Shown here in pieces: positions 34,742 to 40,511 of a stretch of DNA of 64,000 nt. Both the position numbers and the translations under genes were made by a program. How positions within the stretch are numbered: the first letter of the stretch is position 1; each line of letters opens with the position of its first letter. Source of the stretch: Pseudodesulfovibrio alkaliphilus (GTDB taxonomy: Bacteria; Desulfobacterota; Desulfovibrionia; Desulfovibrionales; Desulfovibrionaceae); contig NZ_WODC01000001.1 in assembly GCF_009729555.1 (NCBI RefSeq), forward strand, positions 558,001 through 622,000, written 5' to 3'. Under the pieces are notes generated by a model that was not told the origin of the DNA, did no database searches, and worked only from the letters and a program-made list of their open reading frames with translations.

Positions 34742-35061
34742 CACTCGCGCCCGGATAGCCCGGCCGCCCTGCCCGCGGCACCCCTCTGACCACCGAACGG
34801 CAGAATTCGCGAGGGGCGCATGGGTTGTCTTCATTTTTCCCGGACAGCTTTTTTCTCCCACCAGGGAACCGGCTGGAATTATGGCCGAACCTTGGATCAT
34901 TGTGCCGCAAAAGACATACTGCTGTCATTTTTTCCCTCATAAATCAAAGACATTGTGTGCATTTTGTGCCAGACCGTGAGCAAGTGCCAAACCGTTGGCA
35001 AGCCAAAGAGTGCGCCCTAGTGTATTTTTCAAACAACGCACAATACAGTGAGGTCACTCCA
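34742..35061 (+). promoter_or_regulatory. Regulatory gap before fdhE
   Basis: 320 bases between moeA-like and fdhE. The first part has a weak imperfect stem (around 34778-34822) followed by T-rich sequence, a possible terminator. The second part is AT-richer and contains the tandem 18-bp repeats described separately. A TTGGCA inside the second repeat (34995-35000) stands 17 bases from TAGTGT (35018), a weak -35/-10 pair, so a bound protein could act directly on the polymerase site. Confidence 0.5.
34966..35002 (+). repeat. Two tandem 18-bp repeats, candidate operator of fdhE
   Basis: GTGCCAGACCGTGAGCAA (34966-34983) is followed without a gap by GTGCCAAACCGTTGGCAA (34984-35001); 15 of 18 bases agree. 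The second unit contains the palindrome TGCCAA-ACCG-TTGGCA. A third copy of the same pattern lies before the fdhA unit at 37139. The copies end about 60 bases before the fdhE start. Confidence 0.6.
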
Positions 35062-35949
35062 ATGCAATTCAACATGGACAAGGCGACACGCAACCTGGAT
35101 CGAAAACTGATCCAGCTCAGGGGAAAGTCCTATATCTCATCTGAACTGATCGACCTGTTGGACGCAGTGGCCCATCTCCAGTTGGAAGCCCGGACCAAGG
35201 CCCAAGTGGCCCTGCCCCCAGACCGGGAACTGCCCTCGGCAGAAGCCCTGCTCCAAGGAGTGCCCCTGATGACCCGCGAGTGTTTTCCCCATGACCCGGC
35301 CCAGGCCGCCGACCTGCTCGGCAGGCTTGTGGCTCTGCTCGACGCGACGGGCGGCCCCCTGGGCCAAGCGGCCCGAAGCGTGGGCAAGGCCCTGGCCGAC
35401 GGCGAAATGACCCCCGAGGAATTGTTCCGTCGCTACCTGGGCGACGACGCCACCTTTTTCGCCTCCTGGACCGAACGGACCCCCGGTGCGCCCAAGGCCC
35501 TGGCCTTCCTCGCCTCAGCCGCCCTGGGGCCTTCCATTGAGGCAGCGTCAGAGCTGCTGGCTGCGAAGCTCCCGCCGGTCAAGGTGGCGATATCGGGCGA
35601 ATGTCCCGTCTGCGGCAGCCTGCCGCTCATTTCCTCACTCAGGCAAAAAGAGGGCTTCCGCCATGCGGTCTGTTCCTTCTGCCGCCACGACTACCGCATC
35701 CGGCGCATCGCCTGCCCTGTGTGCGGCGAGGAGGACCAGAAAAAGCTGACCTTCTTCACGGTTGACGAGGAGCCCGGCTTCCGCGTCGATGTCTGCGAAA
35801 GCTGCAAGACCTACATCAAGACAATAGATTTCCGCGAGCTGGACCGGATTTCCCTGCCGGTGCTTGACGACCTCGATTCCCTGGCCCTGGACTATGTGGC
35901 CGCGGGGCAGGGATACAGGCGGGCCACGCTGTCCGCGTGGGGATTCTGA
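35062..35949 (+). CDS. fdhE: Formate dehydrogenase accessory protein FdhE
   Basis: Cytoplasmic maturation factor needed for active formate dehydrogenase before Tat export. 295 residues. The C-terminal half carries the rubredoxin-like Cys pairs of FdhE: CPVCGSLPLISSL near 183, CSFCRHDYRIRR near 205, CPVCGEEDQKKL near 220 and CESCKTYIKTIDF near 250. The ATG at 35062 follows GAGG at 35050-35053; the upstream extension of the frame runs through the repeat region and is rejected. The transposase-like gene starts 14 bases after its stop. Confidence 0.93.
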   Translation: MQFNMDKATRNLDRKLIQLRGKSYISSELIDLLDAVAHLQLEARTKAQVALPPDRELPSAEALLQGVPLMTRECFPHDPAQAADLLGRLVALLDATGGPLGQAARSVGKALADGEMTPEELFRRYLGDDATFFASWTERTPGAPKALAFLASAALGPSIEAASELLAAKLPPVKVAISGECPVCGSLPLISSLRQKEGFRHAVCSFCRHDYRIRRIACPVCGEEDQKKLTFFTVDEEPGFRVDVCESCKTYIKTIDFRELDRISLPVLDDLDSLALDYVAAGQGYRRATLSAWGF

Positions 35950-35963
35950 GACAGGAGGCGATC

Positions 35964-36935
35964 ATGGATCACGCAATGCCCGGAACAAAACCGCAGTCGG
36001 CCATGCGGCCCAGACCCGGTGCGCTGGCAGGCGGGGAGCACCCCAGACGTCCGGTTGTGCCCCACACCCCGAAGGCGGCCGGAGACTTCGCCGCGCTGCT
36101 GCGCGACGAGAAACTGGCCCGGGCCTTTCTGCTCGACCTGGCATGGCCAGCGGGCTCCCCCTTCTGTCCGCGTTGCGGCCACAGCAAGGTCTACGCCCTT
36201 TCAGGCGAACGGCTGCGCTGCGCCGACTGCAAATACACCTTCCACCCCTTTTCGGGCCGATGGATAAACAACGGCGCCCTGAGCGCCGCCGAGTGGCTGG
36301 GCCTCGTGGCCCTGTTCGTCGACGAATGCAGTGTCCACCAGATGAAGGAGCGCCTCGGCCTCTCCTACAACACCGTGTACAAGGCCCTCACCGCCATCCG
36401 CTTCGCCATCGTGGCCCACGCCATCGACGCCCGCCAACTGCTCGGCGAGGCCACCGGGCTCGACTCCTACCTCAAAGGCAACCGGCTCACCGGGGGGCCC
36501 CGCGACATGCGCATGGACACCATTCCGGTCTACGGCATCCTTCGGCGCGACGCCATGGTCTTCATTGATTTGGTGCCCGGATTCCAGGCCGAGACCCTTT
36601 TCCACTTTCACATGAACTTCCACCTCAAGCTCATCCGCACCGGCAACCTGGTCTATACCGACCGCTACAAGGAATACGACGCCCTGCTCTTCTGCGGCAA
36701 CGACTCCCTGCCCTACGAGATCATCCGCCGCTACGACGAGCCGCCCCATATCGACGCCAGCGGCGACGAATTCTGGCCCTTTGCCCTGGAGCGCATTCGC
36801 CGATTCAGGGGCATCTCCTGCCAGCGCTTCCCCTTGTATCTCAAGGAACTTGAGTTCCGGTTCAACAACCGGGAGCGGCCCATTGCCGAAATGCTGGCCG
36901 CCTATCTCTGCGCCCTGGTTCCCCAACTAGACTGA
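35964..36935 (+). CDS. IS1595/ISXO2-like transposase-like protein inside the formate dehydrogenase island
   Basis: 323 residues. AGGAGG precedes the ATG by 5 bases. Zinc ribbon with Cys68/Cys71 (FCPRCG) and Cys86/Cys89 (RCADCK), HTH-like segment VHQMKERLGLSYNTVYKAL (about 124-142), then an ISXO2-type DDE domain: Asp167 (GLDSYLKG), Asp233 (VYTDRYKEYD) and an acidic DEFW near 268-271, with the family ending ELEFRFNNRE. The DE pair after the first Asp and the usual NxIE before FW are altered, so activity is doubtful. I see no terminal inverted repeats or target duplication. The tight spacing after fdhE implies cotranscription and a retained, possibly regulatory, role. Confidence 0.75.
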   Translation: MDHAMPGTKPQSAMRPRPGALAGGEHPRRPVVPHTPKAAGDFAALLRDEKLARAFLLDLAWPAGSPFCPRCGHSKVYALSGERLRCADCKYTFHPFSGRWINNGALSAAEWLGLVALFVDECSVHQMKERLGLSYNTVYKALTAIRFAIVAHAIDARQLLGEATGLDSYLKGNRLTGGPRDMRMDTIPVYGILRRDAMVFIDLVPGFQAETLFHFHMNFHLKLIRTGNLVYTDRYKEYDALLFCGNDSLPYEIIRRYDEPPHIDASGDEFWPFALERIRRFRGISCQRFPLYLKELEFRFNNRERPIAEMLAAYLCALVPQLD

Positions 36936-37067
36936 CTTCGGGCCTCAGCAGACCATCTCCCCCTTCTGCCTGCCGCGCCATCAGCCACTGCCCGCGATGC
37001 CCCGCTCCCAGGCCGCGGCCATACTGACGCCTCCCCTTTTGTGCAAAACTCTTGTAAAGAAAAGCAC

Positions 37068-37228: not shown

Positions 37229-37456
37229 ATGCGCGATTCATTCAACCACAAAGCGGTCGCCGGGACGGTGACGCTCCAGCCTTTTTCCGGGCTGGGTTTC
37301 GACGTGTCCGGGGTCCGCGAGGCCACCCGGACCATGACCCTGCGCCGCCCCGACACGGACATGGACCGGCAAACGCCGCCCATGCCCAGCGCCGTGGCGC
37401 GGCCAAGCGGCTACTCGCTCCTCGTGACGCTGTGTCGCGAAATTCGCGGGCGCTGA
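37229..37456 (+). CDS. Possible small leader ORF of the fdhAB operon
   Basis: 75 residues with GGGAGAGG about 9 bases before its ATG, ending 25 bases before fdhA. No signal peptide, no Cys cluster except a single Cys near the end, and no recognised family; composition is Arg/Thr/Pro-rich. It may be a genuine small protein of the operon, a translated leader, or chance. The good ribosome-binding site and position are the only support. Confidence 0.35.
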   Translation: MRDSFNHKAVAGTVTLQPFSGLGFDVSGVREATRTMTLRRPDTDMDRQTPPMPSAVARPSGYSLLVTLCREIRGR

Positions 37457-37481: not shown

Positions 37482-40400
37482 ATGCACACCAACCGAAGAA
37501 ACTTCCTCAAGCTCTCCGCCACGGCGGCCGTTGCCACGGCCTTCGGCGGCCTCGGGCTTGGCTGTACGCCCAAGGCCGAAGCGGTCGACAGGGCGGCGGC
37601 CATGGACCCGAAGTGGAGCAGACAGACCACAAGCATCTGCTGCTACTGCGCGGTGGGCTGCGGGCTCGTGGTCAACACGTCTCTGAAGACCAAACGGGCC
37701 ATCAACGTCGAAGGCGACCCCGACCACCCCATCAACGAAGGAGCACTGTGCGCCAAGGGCGCGTCCATCTGGCAGTTGGCCGAAAACGACCGCCGGCCCG
37801 ACTCGGTTCTCTACCGTGCGCCCTACGCGAACAAATTCAAGAAGGTCTCCCTGGCCTGGGCCCTGGAAAAGATCGCCCACAACGTCAAAAAGGCCCGTGA
37901 CGAAAACTTCACCCATCTCAATTCTCGCGGGCAGGTCGTCAACCGATGCGACAACATCGCCTCCCTCGGTTCGGCAGCCCTGGACAACGAGGAGTGCTGG
38001 GCCTACTCGACCATGCTCCGCAGCCTCGGCCTGGTCTACATAGAGCATCAGGCACGTATCTGACACAGCGCGACTGTTGCGGCTCTGGCAGAGTCGTTCG
38101 GACGCGGCGCGATGACCAATCACTGGATCGACCTGAAGAACAGTGACTGTATTCTCATAATGGGCAGCAACGCTGCCGAAAACCATCCCATCTCCTTCAA
38201 GTGGGTGACTCGCGCCCAGGAACGGGGCGCCACCGTCATCCATGTGGACCCCCGCTTCACCAGGACCTCGGCCAAGGCGGACATGTACGCCCCGTTGCGT
38301 TCCGGTGCAGACATCGCCGTACTCGGCGGTATGATCAAGTACATCCTGGACAACGACCTGATTTTCAAGGAATATGTCCTGGAGTACACCAACGCCTCGT
38401 TCATCGTCGGCGACAAGTACGCCTTTGACAACGGCATCTTCTCTGGCTACGACCGCGAGTCCAGAAGCTACGACCAGTCCAACTGGGCCTTTGCCATGGA
38501 CGAAAACGGCAACCCCAGGAAAGACCGGACCCTTCAGGACCCGCGCTGCGTCTATCAGCTACTCAAGAAGCACTATGCGCGCTACACCCTGGAAAATGTC
38601 GAGACCATCTCCGGCATGACCCGCAAGGATCTCATCAAGTTCTACGAGACCTATGCGGCCACCGGCAAAAAGGACAAGGCCGGAACCATCATGTACGCCA
38701 TGGGCTGGACCCAGCACACCGTGGGCGTGCAGAACATCCGAACCATGGCCATCATCCAGCTGCTGCTGGGCAATGTCGGCATCCCCGGCGGCGGCGTCAA
38801 CGCACTGCGCGGCGAGGCCAACGTCCAGGGATCCACTGACCACGGCCTACTCTACCACATCCTGCCCGGCTACCTGGCCACCCCCCTGGCGGTACACCAG
38901 AGCCTGGCCGACTACAATAAGGCCCTCACTCCGATCTCCAACGATCCCATGTCCGCCAACTGGTGGCAGAACTTCCCCAAGTATTCGGCGTCGCTGCTCA
39001 AGGCCATGTGGATGGACGACGACCCTGCGGTCTCCTTCAACTACCTGCCCAAGCTCGACACCGCCTCGGCGGCCGTCTACTCCTGGCTGAACCTCTTCGA
39101 TAAGATGGACAAGGGCCAGTTCAAGGGGCTCTTCGCCTGGGGGATGAACCCCGCCTGCTCGGGCGCCAACTCCCACAAGACCCGTCAGGCCCTGACCAAG
39201 CTCGACTGGCTGGTCAACGTCAACATCTTCCCCAACGAGACCGGCTCGTTCTGGGAAGGACCGGACATGGACCCCTCCAAGATCAAGACCGAGGTCTTCT
39301 TCCTGCCCTGCTCGGTGTCCATCGAGAAGGAAGGCTCTGTCAGCAACTCCGGCCGCTGGATGCAGTGGCGCTACCAGGGCCCTGACGCACCCCACGGCTT
39401 CAAGCCCGATGGCGACCTGATGTACGAGCTGATGCACGAGATCCAGGCCCTGTACAAGAAGGAGGGCGGCGTCTATCCAGACCCCGTGCTGCGGTTCAAC
39501 CTTAAGGGATGGGCCACCAACGGCGTCTTCGACCCGCACAAGACGGCCAAGCTGATCAACGGCCACTTCACCCGCGATGTGGAGATCGGCGGCAAGCTCT
39601 ACAAGAAGGGCACCCAGGTGCCCAGCTTCGCCCTGCTCCAGGACGACGGCTCCACCTGCTCGGGCAACTGGCTGTACTGCAACTCCTACACGGATCAGGG
39701 CAACATGGCCGCACGGCGCAGCCTGGCCCAGACCCCGGAGCAGGAAAAGCTCGGCCTTTTCCCCAACTACACATGGTGCTGGCCGGTCAACCGCCGCATC
39801 CTCTACAACCGCGCCTCCGTGGACCCCACCGGCAAGCCCTGGAACCCGGAGCTTCCCCTCATCCAGTGGGACGCCATCAACAAGAAATGGGTGGGCGACG
39901 TACCCGACGGCGGCTGGGCCCCCGGCGAACGGCATCCCTTCATCATGACCCGGTTCGGCTTTGGCCAGATATACGGTCCCGGCCGGGCCGACGGCCCCTT
40001 CCCGGAATACTACGAGCCCCTGGAGTGCCCGGTGAACTCGCACCCGTTCTCCACCACTCTGCACAACCCCACGGCCATCTCCTACGCCGACGAGGACAAG
40101 GCCGTGTGCGATCCCCGGTATCCCTTCGTGGGCACCACCTATCGCGTCACCGAGCACTGGCAGACCGGCCTCATGACCCGTAACCAGGAATGGCTGGTGG
40201 AGATGGAACCCCAGATGTTCGTGGAGATGGGCGAGGAGCTGGCCGCGCTGCGGGGCATCAGAAACGGCGAAAAGGTCATCGTGGAGAGTGTGCGCGGCTC
40301 GGTCTGGGCCAAGGCCATGGTCACCAAGCGCATCAAGCCCTTCGACATCCAGGGCACAGTCATCCATCAGGTGGGCCTGCCCTGGCACTATGGCTGGACC

Positions 40401-40511
40401 TGGCCAAAGGACGGCGGCGACTCGGCCAATATCCTGACTCCGTCCGTGGGCGATCCCAATACCGGCATCCCCGAAACCAAGGCCTTCATGGTCAACGTCC
40501 GCAAGGCGTAA
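37482..40511 (+). CDS. fdhA: Selenocysteine formate dehydrogenase, catalytic alpha subunit
   Basis: Oxidises formate to CO2 in the periplasm, or the reverse, at a Mo or W bis-MGD centre. 1009 residues with an in-frame UGA at 38061-38063 read as selenocysteine, residue 194, within HQARI-U-HSATVAAL, the active-site motif of this family. Reading stops there without recoding, and the same frame continues to 40511. Tat signal RRNFLK at residues 5-10; [4Fe-4S] ligands Cys53, Cys56, Cys60 and Cys90. The length matches Desulfovibrio FdhA. AGGAGG precedes the ATG. fdhB follows 12 bases later. The selenocysteine machinery (selA, selB, selC) is not in this window. Confidence 0.97.
38061..38096 (+). promoter_or_regulatory. 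UGA selenocysteine codon with bacterial SECIS hairpin
   Basis: Right after the UGA the message can fold: CGACT (38071-38075) pairs with AGTCG (38092-38096), and TGC (38078-38080) with GCA (38088-38090), leaving a bulge and the apical loop GGCTCTG. The E. coli fdhF SECIS loop, which SelB binds, is GGUCUG-like. Distance from UGA to stem and loop sequence fit a bacterial SECIS. Confidence 0.88.

Follow-up and report, generated by a model that had tools for sequence, protein, structure and literature searches.

A gene whose product resembles an insertion-sequence transposase sits inside the formate dehydrogenase cluster of Pseudodesulfovibrio alkaliphilus, and the locus raises the question of what such a gene is doing there. 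It lies in the stretch of 64,000 nucleotides analysed here (the window), for which a preliminary description had suggested that the gene is possibly domesticated and that its product could be the regulator that reads the repeats around it. The comparisons assembled in the present study point the same way: in all likelihood the gene encodes a catalytically dead, domesticated IS1595-type transposase that would now serve as transcription factor of the Sec formate dehydrogenase genes, acting on operators that descend from the ends of its own transposon. A gene switch is the most likely function because the catalytic site has been lost, the gene has been kept order-wide, and the sites resemble old transposon ends. 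No prior report of the gene was found in the literature. The features discussed are collected in Table 1.

Table 1. Features of the fdhE–fdhA region, in window coordinates.
Feature	Position	Strand	Description and basis
Operator repeat DR1 (putative)	34966..34983	+	GTGCCAGACCGTGAGCAA; best window match to the ends of intact cousins, 19.4 bits
Operator repeat DR2 (putative)	34984..35001	+	GTGCCAAACCGTTGGCAA; 13.8 bits; overlaps the -35 box
Predicted promoter of fdhE and the transposase-like gene	34995..35023	+	TTGGCA - 17 nt - TAGTGT; probably sigma-70-type
fdhE	35062..35949	+	directly upstream of, and presumed cotranscribed with, the transposase-like gene
Domesticated IS1595-type transposase gene	35964..36935	+	323 aa, proposed transcription factor; ORF, Pfam, single copy, AlphaFold
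Zinc ribbon	36105..36239	+	residues 48-92; Pfam; C68, C71, C86 and C89 never vary among 53 homologs
Helical segment between zinc ribbon and core	36285..36416	+	residues 108-151, likely helix-turn-helix; AlphaFold
Degenerate DDE core	36435..36866	+	residues 158-301; DDE(K) set not intact, conserved FPLYLKELEFRFN retained; Pfam, alignment
Degenerate third repeat copy	37041..37058	+	GTGCAAAACTCTTGTAAA; same orientation, upstream of small ORF and fdhA; position conserved in genus
Palindrome TTATGCC-N6-GGCATAA	37068..37087	.	Mo/W-regulon-type element, not assigned to the transposase-like protein
Unannotated conserved ORF	37229..37456	+	75 aa (PFSGLGFD...REIRGR), between the transposase-like gene and fdhA
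fdhA, formate dehydrogenase alpha subunit	37482..40511	+	in-frame TGA at 38061-38063 (selenocysteine)

As had been described, the gene starts 14 bases past the fdhE stop (35949) and is preceded by an AGGAGG ribosome-binding site. The assignment of its product to the IS1595 type, with zinc ribbon and DDE-type core, was borne out by two Pfam domains above cut-off, Zn_ribbon_IS1595 (PF12760, E 4.8e-11) and DDE_Tnp_IS1595 (PF12762, E 1.6e-16); the NCBIfam IS1595 cut-off was missed (46 vs 75 bits). The AlphaFold model has a mean pLDDT of 89 and a pTM of 0.85, with low confidence in the first ~40 residues, and places helices at 108-119, 124-131 and 135-151, a modelled segment that is likely to function as a helix-turn-helix. 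A fold search of the PDB returned no homologous solved structure. The genome of P. alkaliphilus holds one copy only, and the reported lack of terminal inverted repeats and target duplication held here and at the other fdh-linked copies, where a search that finds both in intact cousins detected neither inverted repeats nor an 8-bp duplication.

The place of the gene is strongly conserved. It follows fdhE directly in 29/29 related genus loci (L002-L030), most of which continue with the small ORF and then Sec-fdhA, and the nearest named loci are from Pseudodesulfovibrio. A match was found in 36/36 genomes of the genus, that in G023 (82% complete) being only a weak transposase-like one, and within the genus the protein is often better conserved (about 75-85%) than FdhE (about 70%). 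Relatives occur in 86/149 genomes and 25/44 genera of the family, and in 91/150 genomes and 23/36 genera of the order Desulfovibrionales, counts that come from related species and are not independent; the order search gave no match in any of the genomes listed for the genus coded g40. Outside the order the gene is rare (4 of about 290 genomes). In most genera it stands just upstream of (small ORF-)fdhA-fdhB, often following fdhE, fdhD or mobA. Several of the MAGs compared are fragmented. Among 80 named loci, fdh genes are present for 57/64 catalytically dead members vs 0/16 intact members, and fdhA is directly downstream in 51 of the 57. Among the matches listed, those to plasmids were at best 25-28% identical and were ordinary IS1595, and phages gave one weak match. 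The 75-aa ORF (PFSGLGFD...GYxLLVxLGREIRGR) occupies the same interval in most loci across Desulfovibrionales and matches no Pfam or NCBIfam family; a fragmentary match to it was also seen beside fdhA in a genome that lacks the transposase-like gene (L188).

Alignment with true IS1595 proteins (motifs EVDESYFGG / VYTD / INHS / IENFW..AK) indicates that the catalytic residues have been lost. The unusual GDEFW of the window protein, remarked upon previously, stands where true IS1595 transposases have IExFW. Across Desulfovibrionales the third acidic residue is lost, the lysine and first Asp mostly so, and in a second clade, associated with another fdh operon, the second Asp has gone as well; the full DDE(K) set was found in no member of the order and is intact only in cousins outside it. 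D232, the second catalytic Asp, is retained in 65/84 main-clade rows, so that it may have a residual role. Pairwise dN/dS values of 0.007-0.22, a range similar to that of fdhE and fdhA, indicate purifying selection, and the reading frame is open throughout the order. The zinc ribbon and the C-terminal core persist within the order. Nineteen columns are invariant among 53 homologs, including all four zinc cysteines, and K294, E295, E297, R299 and N301 are invariant among the 53 sequences. Order-wide linkage, selection and catalytic loss together establish domestication, as far as sequence comparison can.

The intact cousins, 27-44% identical to the window protein, come from Desulfobacterales, Syntrophaceae, Zixibacteria, Synergistaceae, Fraserbacteria and others, the closest being 41-44% identical, and none is near fdh genes. 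DDEK was verified in three of them, the remainder being judged by an intact E-region (INGLEGFW..AKER). They are IS elements of ~850-900 bp with 24-bp inverted ends (GGTAATTGATTAAGTTTTGGCACC; consensus form GGTRATT...TTTGGCACC), bounded by GGTRATTGATTAAGTTTTGGCACC-type ends, and share a layout in which the right end overlaps the 3' codons and stop of the transposase gene and the left end lies ~50 nt before its start. Perfect 8-bp target duplications flank 7/13 of the elements. In a quick maximum-likelihood tree the dead members cluster, bar one long branch, nested among intact ones; with a support of 87% in such a tree, a single dead clade is moderately supported. Compact IS1595-type elements of ~0.9 kb, with GGTAATTG...GGCACC ends and 8-bp A/T-rich target duplications, form a group spread over several phyla (L245, L246, L248, L251, L259, L262, L267). 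Several genomes of the genus also carry multicopy 717-bp IS1595 elements whose copies are identical (L121-L130); their transposase is of the active type and only 27-29% identical to the window protein, so that no near-identical multicopy elements of the window gene were found. Their ends (GGGGCTGT...) were considered as a source of the operators and rejected, showing no close likeness; the match came from the DDEK cousins.

That match concerns the repeats around fdhE and the transposase-like gene. They had been described as 19-bp repeats on both sides in the same orientation; they are real and so arranged, but the units are of 18 bp and the downstream copy is degenerate. Within 3.2 Mb, only DR1 and DR2 match the repeat without a mismatch. 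The downstream copy differs at 3 positions, which in the P. alkaliphilus genome alone is at noise level, and a copy is found at that position genus-wide. Phylogenetic footprinting upstream of fdhE recovered a tandem 18-bp direct repeat in 29/29 genus loci, the second copy including TTGGCA, mostly 17-18 nt before TAnnGT. The tandem site occurs exactly once per genome in 30/36 genus genomes, a reversed control pattern giving 0, and the genomes without it (G002, G009, G016, G023, G027, G028) are those in which the gene has diverged (59-68%), has been relocated or is missing. A matrix was derived solely from 28 ends of 14 intact cousins. Its top-scoring hits in the 64-kb window are DR1 and then DR2, the third hit reaching 7.7 bits, and shuffled windows gave 0.1 hits scoring at least 13 bits. 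In the 200 nt upstream of fdhE the matrix scores highest on DR1 in 28/29 loci; 20 control fdhA loci from genomes without the transposase-like gene peak at 10.6 bits. DR2 matches the transposon-end motif poorly in most species. The resemblance of operator to transposon end, of a kind that derivation would produce, is thus clear at the level of sequence, and the earlier idea that the protein reads the repeats draws independent support from their match to the terminal inverted repeats of the nearest relatives with intact catalytic residues.

Loci of other genera have the end motif across the gene's stop codon, upstream of fdhA, with the ancestral offset (-15/-18) preserved, as in Solidesulfovibrio (L242, 28.4 bits at -15), and in L081, L195 and L071 it lies 19-85 nt further downstream. 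Coding coincidence was considered for the matches at the 3' end and is argued against by a synonymous-codon test: scores exceed the expectation (Wilcoxon p 7.5e-11; 40/93 loci individually p<0.05), although these p-values overstate the evidence because species are not phylogenetically independent. Desulfomicrobium-type loci retain a left end-like site upstream, in inverted orientation, at 7.5-14.4 bits. An end-like site of at least 10 bits around the gene's 3' end was absent in 55/93 fdh-linked loci, and the operator would therefore have moved or diverged in many lineages.

These observations bear on the alternatives. The likeliest of them, itself improbable, is that the domesticated protein became an accessory or maturation factor of formate dehydrogenase, a second zinc-ribbon protein beside FdhE, and that something else binds the repeats. 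The gene presumably shares an operon with fdhE, often also with fdhD and mobA, and the zinc ribbon is among the most conserved parts of the protein; yet an accessory role would account neither for the match between the repeats and the transposon ends of intact relatives of this very protein, nor for the joint presence or absence of repeat and gene in the genus, nor for an ancestral right end retained at DNA level within the 3' codons.

Slightly less probable still is that another regulator, such as a Mo/W-responsive factor acting through the palindrome, uses the 18-bp repeats as its sites, and that these came to resemble transposon ends by convergence. The palindrome is close to the repeats in the genus. 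In P. alkaliphilus the form TTATGYC-N6-GRCATAA also occurs upstream of a ModE-like HTH/ABC-transporter locus, AOR, a MoeA-like gene and an aldehyde dehydrogenase, and near a second Sec-fdhA (loci including L191 and L192), marking what is presumably a tungstate/molybdate (TunR-like) regulon. Against this, either element is found independently of the other in further genera, and a motif taken from unrelated genomes scores highest on the two repeats among about 128,000 window positions on both strands, which chance is unlikely to produce. The palindrome was also considered as a site of the transposase-like protein and rejected, because its presence is independent of the 18-bp repeats and it marks the Mo/W regulon elsewhere. 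A fossil or hitchhiking insertion without function, to which the degenerate catalytic residues might point, is for practical purposes refuted by the frame kept open across the order, the low dN/dS, an identity within the genus above that of FdhE, and the invariant columns with their zinc cysteines.

Under the favoured reading, that of a transposase turned regulator, domestication would have taken place in an ancestor of Desulfovibrionales, where an IS of ~0.9 kb (left end, transposase, right end over the stop codon) inserted itself in front of the small ORF and fdhA. Mutations would have removed the DDE(K) catalytic set, and the zinc ribbon and helical domain would have retained the recognition of transposon ends. 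The right end, lying within the fdhA promoter region, could then have become an operator, and tandem copies of it would now cover the -35 region of the promoter shared by fdhE and the transposase-like gene, the outcome being autoregulation together with control of fdhE and fdhA. The protein would bind DR1-DR2 and the fdhA-proximal site, presumably as a dimer. Relative to an assumed start near 35030, DR1 would span about -64 to -47 and DR2 would lie over -35; activation is slightly favoured over repression because the better-kept DR1 lies just upstream of the -35 box.

The gene also has dead paralogs. One clade, with 100% tree support, flanks a second fdhA-fdhB-fdhE operon, often divergently (L068, L076, L079, L087, L090, L099, L109, L111, L113). 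Motif finding and a scan with the transposon-end motif recognised no end-like operator there, and the motif-finding output was rejected as a candidate since it appears to consist of coding sequence alone. A third dead paralog, which has diverged further, was seen directly in front of NapC/NirT-type (NrfH-like) multiheme cytochrome genes (L077:7327-8082, L093:7696-8490), and this adjacency suggests that further respiratory operons are under the control of the same regulator family. It is fairly probable that a bacterial transcription factor family arose from a DDE transposase, one insertion having given both the regulator and, in the form of the transposon's own ends, its operators, with descendants that reached the second fdh operon and NapC/NirT-type loci.

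Among known systems, the nearest are the IS1595-family insertion sequences themselves (ISXO2-like; DDEK-type), which have the zinc ribbon and DDE domain families in common with the window protein and whose ends match the window operators; the window gene differs in being single copy at a fixed genomic place, without flanking inverted repeats and with its catalytic set lost. TunR and ModE are Mo/W-responsive regulators of formate dehydrogenase and W/Mo genes, and are LysR/ModE-type HTH proteins. They are alike in controlling formate dehydrogenase, and a palindrome of that regulon type stands at the same promoters, but they are unrelated to the window protein, in which Pfam finds no LysR/ModE-type winged HTH domain, and use other sites; a ModE-like HTH gene is present elsewhere in the P. 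alkaliphilus genome. No description of a bacterial transcription factor derived from a DDE transposase was found in the open-licence literature. If the present reading is true, it would provide a clear case of one, with transposon ends as ready-made operators and a history that can be traced from insertion sequences alive today to a regulator present across an order. Formate dehydrogenase, an enzyme central to sulfate reducers and to syntrophy, would gain a named regulator, and 'IS1595 transposase' annotations in these genomes should then not be discarded as mobile DNA. Among eukaryotes, DDE transposases or their DNA-binding domains have been reused as transcription factors in ZBED, CENPB, FHY3 and others (PMC10027918, PMC2780926). 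Among bacteria and phages, TldR proteins are described as nuclease-dead, TnpB-derived, RNA-guided repressors (PMC13418256). No TnpB domain was found in the window protein, whose domains are the zinc ribbon and DDE_Tnp_IS1595. TldR offers the likeness of a catalysis-dead transposon protein exapted as a bacterial transcription regulator; it descends, however, from the RNA-guided nuclease TnpB, has a dead RuvC nuclease and uses a guide RNA, whereas the window protein has a DDE transposase as its ancestor and would recognise DNA directly, at sites that go back to transposon ends.
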